Shown piece after piece: positions 51,581 through 55,851 of a stretch of 58,162 bases of DNA. Position numbers and translations under genes: made by a program. How positions within the stretch are numbered: the first letter of the stretch is position 1; each line of letters starts with the position of its first letter. This stretch comes from an uncultured bacterium (lineage in GTDB: Bacteria; Verrucomicrobiota; Kiritimatiellia; RFP12; UBA1067). The notes under the pieces are model-generated. The model saw nothing but the letters and a program-made list of their open reading frames with translations, did no database searches and was not told the DNA's origin. Where the stretch lies: assembly GCA_902779565.1 (NCBI GenBank), contig CACZCD010000005.1:1-58162 (forward strand). The letters run 5' to 3'.

Positions 51581-51588
51581 GGTTGACT

Positions 51589-54500
51589 ATGAAAAAATAT
51601 GTTTTTGGTTCTGCAGCGCTTTGCGCGTTCGCGTGGTGCGGGGCTTCCGCCGCGCCGATGCTTGAGACGGTGGAGAACAGCCATTTCCGGATGACCGTCG
51701 ATCCGCTCGGCGCAAGGATAACGAGTCTCTTCTCGAAGGATGCGGGCGTGGATCTCACCGTCCCCGGATCACCTGGGCTCTTCACGGAGTCGAGCTGGGA
51801 CCGCTGGCACTCACGCGGCCGGCTGGCGAAGACGGTGTTCGATGTAAAATGTAAAATTGAAAATGTAAAATGTAAAATGGGGGACGGGTTTTCGGTAGAG
51901 GCGATGGGGCAGGGCTCGGGGGTGATTCCGTTCATGCGGGTGGGCAAGCGCTATTCGTCCGTGCCGGAGTCCACGGCGCTCACCGTGGAGTACAGCTTCA
52001 TCAACGCGCCGGACGCGATGTCGCTCCAGGCGTATTCGCCAACCATCCACCTTTCGTTGGCGATGGAAGGGCGCATCGTGTCGTTCTGCTATGCGGACGC
52101 GGAGGGAATGCACCGGCGTGGCCAGAACGAGGGCAGCAGCCTCCGCACCGAGACCCCGATGCGTGGCTGGTACGCGGCGGTGGACCGGAAGGGGGAGGTC
52201 GGCGCCGTGGTCACGGTGCCGTACGAATGGCTGCACGGGTTCTCCGCGTGGCTGCCGGGCACGCCGAGTTCGGAGATCAAGCTTCTGCCGGTGGGCATCG
52301 AGAACGGCGATTCGTTCAAGGTGAAGCTGGAGCTGATCCCGTTCAAGGGGCTTGCGTTCGTCTCCGGCGCGGGCGGCGGACTCGTCGGCTCGCTCGGCGA
52401 CGGGGTGTGCAAGGTGGTGAATTCGCGGGCCGGAAAGGTTGTCGCGGAGCATGACGGAATCAAGACCGTGCTCGACTTCGACCGCCCCGGTTCGCTGTGC
52501 ACGTTTGAGACGAAAGCGACGACGGTGCGGCTCACGAAGGATGGGCATGAGGTTTGCCGTCTCGACGCGAAGCCGGGAAAGGGGAAATGGTCGCTTGAGC
52601 CGGAATGCAAGCGGCACGCGCCTTTCAAGTGCGAAGCGGACCTTACGTGCTACACGAACTTCCCGTCGTTCGGTCTGCGGCCGTGGGCAAAGCCGCTCGA
52701 AGGAGGTCCGGTAAAGGTCTCGGTTGTGACGGGGCGGGGGAACGTGCCGGAGATCGGCGCGCTTGCGGAGTGCTTCGACATGGAGTATCGCGTGATCGGC
52801 GTGAACATGGATATCGATGGAGCCGGCAAGCGGCACCTCGGCAACCCGCAATATTCGTTCGGCGACGTGTTCGGGCGCGTGGGGCCGAAGGACATGGAGC
52901 GCGAGGTGAACAAGGTGCTTTCCTGGCCGTCTGACGTGATCCTGCTCGGCGGTGTTCCGGTCGATGCGCTGCCGGAAAGCTCCCGCAAGATCGTCGCGGA
53001 CCGCGTCAAGGCGGGCACGGGGCTTGTGCTTGTGGGGAACCTCGACAAGACGGCGTTCGCGACGGGGCGTGTGGTGCGGCTGGAATATCCGGCCACGCCG
53101 CGCATCGGACCGTGGCTGATGGGCGGCATCACGCCGGATTTGCGGGACTTCTACCCCGACCGCGCAACCGATCCCGAGGAGTATTATTCGCGCGTGGCGA
53201 AGGCGATATACGAGTGTAAAAGGTGGAAAAGTGGAAAAGTGGAAAGGTGGAAAAGTGGAAAGGTGGAAAGGTGGAAAAGTGGAAAGGTGGAAAGGTGGGA
53301 AAGTGGAAAAGTGGGAAGGTGGGAAAGTACTACCAACTACCAACTGCCAACTACCAACTGGGTGGTGTACAACTGCTTCCGCGAGAAGCTGGCGGAAGGG
53401 CGCGGGAAGCTGCCGGATCCCGCGTCGCTGCCGAAGTTCTCCGGTGCGTTGTCGGTGGAGTATTCCGTCCAGCGGAACGGGCGCGTGACGTTCTGGGACC
53501 GCTACGCCGTGACGAACGCGCCGGCGGCTTCGATCGTTGCGATCGATCCCGATTCATCCCGTCGGCTGAAGGAAGGGGAGCTTCTGCCGGTGAAGGTGCG
53601 CGTTGCCGGGGATGTCGCCGGATTCGAGGCGGAGATTCGCTTCAGCGACGTCTTTGGGAGGGTGCTGGACGTGCGCCGGATGCCGGCGGCGGCGGAGATG
53701 AAGGCGGAGTTCCGCGTGGAGAACGCCCTGAAGTCCCGCTCGTACGGGGTGGTGGCCGAGCTTCGTTCCGGCGGCAAGGTGGCGTCGCGCCGCCGCGAAC
53801 GCTACATTGCGCGTCCGTCGCGCGAGAAGCTGGCGTGGAACGACTTCGAGATCGGCGTGAGCGGGAACTCCGAGACGCGGTACTACCTGTTCCCGCAACT
53901 CGCGAAGATGTACAAGGACGCGCAGTTCGTCACGGTGGGAGGCCAGTGGCCGGTGCGGTACACGCTTTCGCCGTTCTACGACTTCAACACGAGCGACTCC
54001 ACCCACATCGGCCTGAACCGGCATGCGGAGCCGGCGGCGTATGCGAAGGCGGGCGACAAGTTCATGCTCGTGCGCGGCCAGTGCCTCTCCGACCCGAAGC
54101 GGCTTGCATCGACGGAGGCGTTCCTCGAAAAGGCGTTCAAGCGCGATTTGCCTACGATGGGATATCGGCATCACGGCTTCGGCGACGAGCAGTCGCTCAC
54201 CGGGTACGAAGGTACGCCGATAGACTTCTGCTTCTCCGAGCACTGCCTGCGGGAGTTCCGCGCGTTCGCGAAGGCACGCTATGGCACGCTCGACCGGCTG
54301 AACAAGGAATACGACTCCAACTTCGGCTCGTGGGACGACGTGGTGCCGTTCACCCGGCAGGAGGTGTGGGATGCGAACGGCAAACATGTGGCGGGGTGGT
54401 CCGACCATCTGGAGTTCATGGACGACCGCGTGACGAACATGATGACGCGCGCCGCGCGGGTGCTCCGCAACCTCGATCCGGACATCGGCCTCACGCTTTC

Positions 54501-55851
54501 CGGCACGCAGCCGCCCGCCGCCTACACGGGCATGGACTGGTGGAAGATCCTGCAGATCCTCACCGGTGCGCAGTCGTATGGCATCGGCGGGCAGTACGAC
54601 ATCCACCGCTCGTTCCGGCCGGATGGGCATTTCACGCCCTGGGCGATTGGCTACGGCAACCGCGGAGACGGCGCGCGCCGCGCACTCTGGGAGACCGTGT
54701 TCCGCGGCCAGGCGGGAGTGGACTTCTTTTGGGCGCGTTCGGGCTTCAATCCCGACTTCACGCAGACGCACGGCATCTCGGACATCCTCGCTGACCTGAA
54801 ACGTGCGGGCCAGGGCGCCGGCAAGTACGCGATGAACGTGCTGCATCCGCGCCATGAGATCGCCATCCTGTATTCGCAGGCGTCGTTCAGGGGTGCGTTC
54901 ATCGAGGAGCGTCGGAAGGAGCATGATGCGCTGCATGAGGCGGTGCGGACGGCGCTCAGGCAGCTCGGTGTTTCGTTCGACTACATATCCTACGCGCAGC
55001 TTGAAAAGTGGAAAAGTGGAAAGGTGGAAAAGTACTGCCAGCTACCAACTTACAAGATCCTTATCCTTGCCGATGCGGTGGCGATGTCCGATGCGGAGAT
55101 CGAAGGCGTGCGCGCATTTGCGAAGGATGGCGCGACGGTCGTGGCGTTCGGTCAGCCCGGCACGCGTACGGCAAACTGCCGCCTGCGGGCGACAGCTCCC
55201 CTTGAAGGGTTCTTCAGTGGCGGGAAGCGACGTCTCGAGGGGCGGACGGGGGATGCGGACGATGTACGTGCGGTCCTGCGTGGTGCGCTTGCCGATGCAG
55301 GGATCGAAGTTGAGACGCTACGTATCGTCGATGCGGACGGCAAGGCGGTGGAGCGAGCCATCGTCTATGCGATGGAGGATGCGGCGGGGAACCGATTCCA
55401 TGGCGTGGTCACCGGCGATTTCGGGTCGCGGGAGGTGCGGTACGTCTTCCCGAAAAAGGGATGGGTGTACGATCTCGTGGACGGCAAGGCGTACGGCAAC
55501 GTGAAGGAGGTGAAGACCTCCTACGGCAAAGGACGTCCGCACGGATTCGTGCAGCTCGCTACGCCGACGGGGATGCGTGGGCTGTTCGATGAGGGGCGTC
55601 GCGTACGCATCGACTGCGGCGGGACGGCCGACACGGTTGTGCGCGTGCAGGTGTTCCGTCCAGACGGAACGGAGGCGACATGCTACGCGGCGAACGTGCT
55701 CGCGCGCGGCGGCAAGGCTGTCTATGAAGTGCCGTTTGCGCTTTCCGATCCGTCCGGCGACTGGAAAGTCACGGCGGCGAACATCCTCGGTTCCGCCTCC
55801 GCCTCGTGCTCTCTTCCCTTCCGTCGAGGGTCGGATGCCGATGTCCACTAA
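51589..55851 (+). CDS. Secreted GH42-like glycoside hydrolase interrupted by in-frame short tandem repeats
   Basis: A 1420-aa exported enzyme; signal peptide MKKYVFGSAALCAFAWCGAS, with AAGG before the ATG. The N-terminal part is a mutarotase-like sandwich (GARITSLFSKDAGVDL). The barrel (about 745-1130) has GH42 traits: GDEQSLTGYEG (acid/base Glu near 866), FCFSEHCLREFRAFAKARYG and LNKEYDSNFGSWDDV, followed by a trimerisation-like domain (EIAILYSQ). Three in-frame repeat tracts lie at about residues 84-97, 543-591 and 1138-1155 and look foreign to the fold. They probably sit in loops, since the long frame is kept. The substrate is likely a beta-galactoside but is not certain. Confidence 0.72.
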   Translation: MKKYVFGSAALCAFAWCGASAAPMLETVENSHFRMTVDPLGARITSLFSKDAGVDLTVPGSPGLFTESSWDRWHSRGRLAKTVFDVKCKIENVKCKMGDGFSVEAMGQGSGVIPFMRVGKRYSSVPESTALTVEYSFINAPDAMSLQAYSPTIHLSLAMEGRIVSFCYADAEGMHRRGQNEGSSLRTETPMRGWYAAVDRKGEVGAVVTVPYEWLHGFSAWLPGTPSSEIKLLPVGIENGDSFKVKLELIPFKGLAFVSGAGGGLVGSLGDGVCKVVNSRAGKVVAEHDGIKTVLDFDRPGSLCTFETKATTVRLTKDGHEVCRLDAKPGKGKWSLEPECKRHAPFKCEADLTCYTNFPSFGLRPWAKPLEGGPVKVSVVTGRGNVPEIGALAECFDMEYRVIGVNMDIDGAGKRHLGNPQYSFGDVFGRVGPKDMEREVNKVLSWPSDVILLGGVPVDALPESSRKIVADRVKAGTGLVLVGNLDKTAFATGRVVRLEYPATPRIGPWLMGGITPDLRDFYPDRATDPEEYYSRVAKAIYECKRWKSGKVERWKSGKVERWKSGKVERWESGKVGRWESTTNYQLPTTNWVVYNCFREKLAEGRGKLPDPASLPKFSGALSVEYSVQRNGRVTFWDRYAVTNAPAASIVAIDPDSSRRLKEGELLPVKVRVAGDVAGFEAEIRFSDVFGRVLDVRRMPAAAEMKAEFRVENALKSRSYGVVAELRSGGKVASRRRERYIARPSREKLAWNDFEIGVSGNSETRYYLFPQLAKMYKDAQFVTVGGQWPVRYTLSPFYDFNTSDSTHIGLNRHAEPAAYAKAGDKFMLVRGQCLSDPKRLASTEAFLEKAFKRDLPTMGYRHHGFGDEQSLTGYEGTPIDFCFSEHCLREFRAFAKARYGTLDRLNKEYDSNFGSWDDVVPFTRQEVWDANGKHVAGWSDHLEFMDDRVTNMMTRAARVLRNLDPDIGLTLSGTQPPAAYTGMDWWKILQILTGAQSYGIGGQYDIHRSFRPDGHFTPWAIGYGNRGDGARRALWETVFRGQAGVDFFWARSGFNPDFTQTHGISDILADLKRAGQGAGKYAMNVLHPRHEIAILYSQASFRGAFIEERRKEHDALHEAVRTALRQLGVSFDYISYAQLEKWKSGKVEKYCQLPTYKILILADAVAMSDAEIEGVRAFAKDGATVVAFGQPGTRTANCRLRATAPLEGFFSGGKRRLEGRTGDADDVRAVLRGALADAGIEVETLRIVDADGKAVERAIVYAMEDAAGNRFHGVVTGDFGSREVRYVFPKKGWVYDLVDGKAYGNVKEVKTSYGKGRPHGFVQLATPTGMRGLFDEGRRVRIDCGGTADTVVRVQVFRPDGTEATCYAANVLARGGKAVYEVPFALSDPSGDWKVTAANILGSASASCSLPFRRGSDADVH
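51840..51880. repeat. AAAATGT 7-bp repeat tract inside a gene
   Basis: Five partly degenerate units of about 7 bp (AAAATGT, with one AAAATTGAAAATGT variant) are read as VKCKIENVKCKM in the GH42-like protein. Confidence 0.8.
53215..53361. repeat. Composite GTGGAAAR (8 bp) plus CTACCAA (7 bp) tandem repeats inside a gene
   Basis: About thirteen 8-bp units of GTGGAAAR (53223-53328) are translated as VERWKSGK-type blocks. They are followed by four units of CTACCAA (53330-53360) encoding TNYQLPTTN. An array of 8-bp units only stays in frame every three units, and no stop arises. Confidence 0.9.
55002..55050. repeat. Second, shorter composite copy of the same repeats
   Basis: GAAAAGTGGAAAAGTGGAAA and the next units repeat the GTGGAAAR pattern, followed by AGTACTGCCAGCTACCAACT in the same order as at 53215-53361. 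It is again read in frame (LEKWKSGKVEKYCQLPTYK). Confidence 0.85.

Follow-up and report, generated by a model that had tools for sequence, protein, structure and literature searches.

How can a gene remain open through tandem arrays whose units of 7 and 8 bp are not divisible by three, and how did such arrays come to lie there? The question is raised by a glycosidase gene on contig CACZCD010000005.1 (GenBank assembly GCA_902779565.1) of an uncultured bacterium of the Kiritimatiellia (Verrucomicrobiota), of which the whole stretch of 58,162 nucleotides that was analysed is referred to here as the window. A preliminary description of the window had placed AAAATGT, GTGGAAAR and CTACCAA arrays in this gene and had reported its frame of 1420 codons to be open across them, both of which were borne out: the arrays are located at 51842-51879, 53213-53359 and 55003-55050, and the frame is free of stops from 51583 to 55851, with 1420 codons counted from the ATG at 51589. 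The arrays probably belong to a lineage-specific swarm of dispersed 7/8-bp repeats, of the long-simple-sequence-repeat or short-tandem-repeat class, which has recently spread between and inside genes, was laid down strand-specifically and is carried in frame as a tolerated passenger. The gene and its arrays are as follows (ORF, open reading frame).

51589..55851, + strand: secreted GH42-like glycosidase gene, 1420 aa from ATG 51589; the ORF opens at TTG 51583
51842..51879, + strand: site 1, AAAATGT/AAAATTG heptamer array, peptide VKCKIENVKCKM, about 7 residues longer than homologues
53213..53328, + strand: left part of site 2, GTGGAAAR octamer array of 14.4 units, G-rich strand on top, peptide (VERWKSGK)n
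53329..53359, + strand: right part of site 2, CTACCAA heptamer array of 4.4 units, C-rich strand on top, peptide TTNYQLPTTN
55003..55033, + strand: left part of site 3, GTGGAAAR array of 3.9 units (Tandem Repeats Finder)
55034..55050, + strand: right part of site 3, degenerate CTGCCAGCTACCAACT (sequence, pattern match)

Residues 881-989 of the glycosidase match PF02449 Glyco_hydro_42 (E 7.8e-9), its closest solved structure is 3tts_A (E 5e-8) and its N-terminus, MKKYVFGSAALCAFAWCGAS, is signal-like. At the coordinates given above Tandem Repeats Finder called ATGTAAA x5.4, the 8-mer x14.4, ACTACCA x4.4 directly abutting the 8-mer array, and GAAAAGTG x3.9, while the heptamer tail of site 3 (55035-55049, CTGCCAGCTACCAAC) is a pattern match only with 2 mismatches. 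Both these calls and dinucleotide shuffles place the 7/8-bp tandem arrays of the window far above chance expectation, as GTGGAAAR gave 14 matches against a shuffle mean of 0.00, CTACCAA 4 against 0.05 and AAAATGT 4 against 0.08, with up to 2 mismatches permitted for the latter two patterns. The arrays are impure (87% match by Tandem Repeats Finder), and the junction AAAGTACTRCCA is common to the two GTGGAAAR/CTACCAA composites of the gene, at sites 2 and 3.

Comparison with homologues established what the arrays add to the protein. A full-length paralogue from the same genome (L131) and an orthologue from the same family (L130) align across both flanks of each array site and are without all three arrays; relative to these homologues, the glycosidase of the window has some 7 additional residues at site 1 and again at site 3, the latter taken as its left and right parts, and the whole of site 2 stands in place of a variable linker of 36-47 residues. 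The paralogue in turn has its own insert, GERGTGNGEP, in a different loop, at a GGGGAAY array. Judged from these alignments the arrays are insertions. A near-identical second copy of the glycosidase gene was searched for and none was found, and a related-locus search with the entire protein gave no match.

The frame of the glycosidase remains intact because neither 7 nor 8 shares a factor with 3 and because the words are without stops in the sense frames. Successive units of 7 or 8 bp occupy each of the three frames in turn, the cycle closing after 21 or 24 bp, as in the run at 53223-53319 where successive unit starts take phases 2, 1 and 0, and the peptide of an array is, owing to this coprime unit length, independent of the frame of entry. 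None of the sense frames of GTGGAAAR, CTACCAA and GGGGAAY contains a stop, and the peptides of these words are polar; the picture of a harmless word requires correction for AAAATGT, which holds TAA once per 21-bp cycle, and site 1 stays open because one of its units is the variant AAAATTG. For the sequence downstream of an array only the total length of the insert counts. An insertion would be tolerated where it lies in a loop and 3 divides its total length, and others would be removed by selection, such that frame and position would be sorted.

A search of the draft genome (4,093,499 bases, 96% complete) found many further copies of the words, intergenic ones among them, as the preliminary description had suggested for a dispersed repeat family tolerated in loops; its further supposition that the family is special to surface enzymes was not upheld, as detailed below. 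Pattern matches in this genome comprised 99 GTGGRAAR pairs, 134 CTACCAA pairs (one mismatch allowed), 15 for TAAAATGTAAAATG and 183 GGGGAAY triplets. Among relatives the distribution is patchy: GTGGRAAR and CTACCAA pairs were found in none of four same-genus genomes (63-87% complete), a 23-mer is present in 2 of the 387 genomes of the phylum, the present genome included, and one genome of the same family (G088) has 22 GTGGRAAR pairs. High copy number across one genome together with patchy occurrence in relatives is the distribution of dispersed 7-8-bp arrays of the short-tandem-repeat (STRR) type. The exact GTGGAAAR 23-mer occurs in many phyla, among the matches listed, and a word vocabulary shared across phyla was considered; however, the other words seldom co-occur near these loci, and among relatives a backward control pattern turns up nearly as widely as the pattern itself, except in G000 and G088, for which reasons this idea was dropped and no such claim is made.

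The arrays are not confined to, or concentrated in, surface or dispensable genes. They are present in frame in UvrA, IleRS, LeuRS, QueA, a MiaB-like enzyme, glycosyltransferases and several glycosidases, with Pfam-supported hosts further including GluRS/GlnRS, NuoF, RibD, UxaC, GT2, MFS, a Mur-ligase-type protein and transporters. In alignments to solved structures the additional residues of QueA (about +17 aa), LeuRS (+8 and +10), IleRS (+11) and UvrA (+12) fall between conserved segments. Three aminoacyl-tRNA synthetases carry GNGERGT-type inserts, two each in LeuRS and IleRS, and are encoded on the following stretches.

L296, 1192-3864: LeuRS
L080, 2-3007: IleRS
L278, 1906-3657: GluRS/GlnRS

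The placement of the arrays relative to genes was assessed in a context set of 69 stretches and the window (474 kb), in which genes were called by a codon-score script and 146 arrays of seven word families were sorted by gene context. Forty-nine lie inside genes, 47 of them in sense and 2 in antisense orientation, both of the latter in doubtful short ORFs; under stricter limits (genes of at least 900 bp, arrays at least 60 bp from gene ends), which retain 42 of the 49, the figures are 41 sense and 1 antisense. A second set, chosen by GGGGAAY alone and with arrays masked during gene calling, contained 25 sites, of which 20 were sense, none antisense and 5 outside called genes. The share of a word found within genes follows its stop content, CACTAAC with stops on both strands being in genes in 0 of 13 cases and GGGGAAY in 14 of 16; in these array-chosen stretches GGGGAAY lies inside called genes in 14/16 and 20/25 cases and the other words are mostly intergenic; for different words of this class, a mainly intergenic location and depletion in coding sequence are on record. 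For CTACCAA and CTCTAAA, stops can account for the sense orientation. The antisense frames of other words are stop-free (GGGGAAY in 36/36 arrays, GTGGAAAR in 21/21 and AAAATGK in 12/12), and their orientation is probably explained by peptide tolerance; sense peptides are polar (mean grand average of hydropathy, GRAVY, -0.8 to -2.5) and antisense peptides are less polar or hydrophobic.

The most regular property of the arrays is their order. Neighbouring arrays were paired up to 200 bp apart, omitting those with a G minus C fraction below 0.1, and in the present genome adjacent arrays read G-rich then C-rich in 49 cases, the reverse in 2, and were of the same type in 10. For gaps of at most 30 bp the counts were 32 to 0, with 13 of the 32 composites located inside called genes, among whose hosts 10 have Pfam support and 1 has paralogue support. 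Control arrays of period 9-20 bp in the same DNA gave 10 versus 8. In other organisms, represented by 80 loci fetched for GTGGAAAR, G-C pairs numbered 45 as compared to 7 C-G pairs, and where neither array was GTGGAAAR-like the counts were 25 versus 0; the order rule is thus independent of the word and is also observed in loci from other phyla. As G-then-C order is invariant under reverse complementing it does not depend on the strand that is read, and as it holds inside genes, start and stop signals cannot explain it there.

The same polarity is apparent between genes. Arrays of GTGGAAAR begin at the upstream stop codon (median -1) and those of CTAYCAA finish shortly before the next start (median 13.5 bp). 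In tandem gene pairs with both gene edges at most 400 bp away (86 arrays), the sense strand is G-rich in 39 arrays and C-rich in 8 close to the upstream stop, and C-rich in 34 and G-rich in 5 close to the next start (Fisher p 4.6e-11 for 39/5/8/34), such that the G-rich strand is close to the 5′ neighbouring ORF regardless of gene direction. The G-rich strand therefore points 5′ to 3′ outward and composites read G-rich then C-rich, which is the arrangement of telomerase-type repeats, and this head-to-head polarity suggests strand-specific synthesis of the repeats. The G-rich strand would be the growing strand, extending 5′ to 3′ from unique DNA on each flank, and two arrays would then meet head to head like fused telomeres. 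In a modest version of this scheme the synthesis would be polar slippage during repair synthesis or fork restart, and in a bold version it would be the healing of ends by a hypothetical enzyme.

A number of points weigh against the view of a strand-specifically synthesised, tolerated swarm. The stretches were picked for holding arrays, about 0.6 of 4.09 Mb being read, and genes were called with a simple in-house script; owing to this selection the shares inside and outside of genes are not genome-wide values, orientation and order being less affected. Two of the 13 in-gene composites (on L057 and L060) are in doubtful short ORFs. The order rule is not absolute, as the loci of other organisms include the 7 C-G pairs and, by genome majority, divide into 19 G-C, 5 C-G and 2 ties, while family relatives, with few pairs, gave 3 G-C versus 1 C-G. 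That GGGGAAY lies in genes exclusively in sense orientation does not follow from polar synthesis by itself, and a further assumption is required, namely selection at the level of the peptide. Furthermore, the step from polarity to mechanism is one that we infer, and any enzyme behind it is hypothetical. A search for a telomerase-like reverse transcriptase gave no RVT_1 match in the present genome (96% complete), although 37 of the 104 genomes searched have one, and Ku was found neither in this genome nor in any of the 104. For this reason neither a telomerase homologue nor classical, Ku-dependent end joining is favoured.

These results bear on other accounts of how the arrays arose. The preliminary description took sites 2 and 3 for copies of one composite, and their shared order and their junction do support a relationship, as does the recurrence of the order elsewhere in the genome; nevertheless, a single mobile element, GTGGAAAR then CTACCAA, copying itself as a unit is very improbable. 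The word pairs are many (GTGGAAAR/CTCTAAA, AAAATGK/CTACCAA, GGGGAAY/CTCGAAA, GATAGAK/CTATCAA, TTGGTAG/GTTCCCC and others), junctions and spacers differ among 40 composites and many arrays stand alone, and since word pairs and junctions vary, it is the strand polarity and not the sequence that is conserved and the single copied composite is rejected. Telomere-like end healing, by which G-rich 7/8-bp words would be added to 3′ ends at breaks and the healed ends then joined, accords with the order counts (49:2 and 45:7 as compared to 10:8 for the control periods), with the 13:0 inside genes where gene signals cannot account for it, and with TTTAGAG, GTTAGTG, TTGGTAG and GGGGAAY being G-rich on the outward strand, yet the RVT_1 and Ku results mean that another enzyme or microhomology joining would be required, and we regard it as unlikely. 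A wider proposal would be that an undescribed, strand-polar process common to bacteria of several phyla extends 3′ ends at breaks or stalled forks with G-rich 7/8-bp words, the extended ends being joined head to head with neither a known reverse transcriptase nor Ku taking part, and that in this genome its activity is high enough to have left in-frame, sense-only tandem peptides in the loops of essential enzymes; this proposal, too, is unlikely. It is distinctly unlikely that the arrays have instead a selected function as regulatory spacers, serving as binding sites, quadruplexes, terminators or ribosome-loading leaders, with in-gene copies as by-products. The placement at upstream stops and before next starts would suit such a role, and comparable placement is reported for the TAACTGA (PMC4679880) and GGGNATC (PMC4692102) heptamers, but the outward rule also operates inside genes and needs no gene direction, the words vary between sites, and relatives live without them.

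The tolerated-passenger reading also differs from the preliminary description in respect of phase variation. Phase-variable simple sequence repeats consist of tandem units not divisible by 3 in a coding frame, and gain or loss of one 7/8-bp unit had been proposed to shift the frame and toggle the glycosidase off and on. Such repeats are a topic of both heptamer papers (PMC4679880 and PMC4692102). The arrays do lie in coding frame, their unit length is such that one unit would break the gene, and the array at 53213 has 14 units; even so, such switching was not favoured when gene function, the frames across arrays and two paralogues were examined, and it is hardly probable at all. The same class of array is in frame in IleRS, LeuRS, GluRS/GlnRS, UvrA, QueA, NuoF and RibD, and as essential genes host arrays, off-switching by one unit is expected to be lethal or costly and is not a plausible strategy. 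An inspection of 170 array blocks found 24 across which a single frame stays open from one coding flank to the other. In 9 the coding flanks share a strand and differ in frame, and in 2 stops separate flanks of the same frame; these 11 look like the usual short spacing between neighbouring genes, a judgement made by eye and not from homology. The other blocks are coding on one side at most or are located at the edge of a stretch, and no clearly broken gene, that is an OFF allele at an array, was found among the 170. In the paralogues L061 and L092, which are 56% identical, the CTACCAA insert is equal in length and in unit number and differs by substitutions only. Unlike phase-variable repeats, then, the arrays reside in housekeeping genes, are impure and show no clear OFF alleles, and changes in unit number would be frameshifts selected against rather than a switch in use.

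Several known systems share features with the arrays described here. The Rickettsia palindromic elements are repetitive DNA, palindromic and about 100-150 bp in length, which is present in frame, and tolerated, in many unrelated protein genes. The present arrays resemble them in being inserted in frame in many unrelated proteins and absent from homologues, and differ from them in being variable arrays of varied 7/8-bp words and not a conserved palindrome of fixed length. A class of dispersed heptamer repeats is already known. The TAACTGA heptamers of Beggiatoaceae, Cyanobacteria and Bacteroidetes are, in the available portion of their description (MacGregor 2015, PMC4679880), dispersed, patchy by lineage and cross-phylum, with arrays close before start codons and a few inside ORFs, mainly at the protein periphery; stop content sets the orientation tolerated in genes, and mobility is suspected, without a mechanism. 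The present arrays are likewise dispersed 7-bp arrays with a patchy distribution among lineages, whereas they include, unlike TAACTGA as described there, dozens of in-gene copies in internal loops of essential enzymes, several words, and composites. The GGGNATC heptamers of Xanthomonas and Nostoc, according to the portion available of Rehm (2015, PMC4692102), are intergenic repeats near the 5′ neighbouring ORF irrespective of gene direction, for which phase variation was deemed unlikely. They have the same outward polarity of the G-rich strand as the arrays in this genome, which differ from that account in their many words, their sense-strand copies in genes and their head-to-head composite rule. 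As far as literature searches show, the wide occurrence of in-frame arrays in essential enzymes is new, and so is a head-to-head order that holds whatever the word; neither such order nor such arrays in essential enzymes were reported in what these searches returned, which is no proof of absence.

Bacterial short tandem arrays are usually read as phase switches or intergenic regulatory sites, and here they appear as frame-neutral passengers through essential proteins. The polarity predicts which strand is synthesised, and thereby makes the origin of dispersed heptamer repeats testable. For annotation, peptides such as GNGERGT, VERWKSGK and LPTTNYQ should be taken as insertions and not as domains.

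Further elements were observed in the vicinity of the arrays. A non-array module with CTCTGCG..CTCTGCG repeats (...CTCTGCGTCCTCTGCGCCTCTGCGTGAGA...) is present in intergenic composites, beside or between the G-rich and C-rich arrays, with 7 matches in 6 stretches of the present genome (e.g. L031, L038, L049, L086, L089 and L091), and a dispersed hairpin-like element, CCCTCTA....AGAGGGG within ...CTCCCCCGGCCTACGGCCACCCCCTCTATCTTAGAGGGGGAGTTTT..., is often located 5′ of CTACCAA arrays; its pattern was matched 24 times, counting both strands, in 11 stretches that include L035, L037, L039, L071, L088 and the window. In four instances (L057:2929-3002, L060:3037-3109, L084:2951-3045 and L095:2962-3114) a GTGGAAAR array is followed by its reverse complement, and the large hairpins that the two may form could act as terminators. 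In Candidatus Cloacimonadota STF1_13 (L148 and L178), the GTGGAAAR arrays recur in direct orientation at regular intervals, separated by a conserved spacer of about 40-50 bp, and give GG and CC pairs; this higher-order repeat does not resemble the composites found elsewhere.
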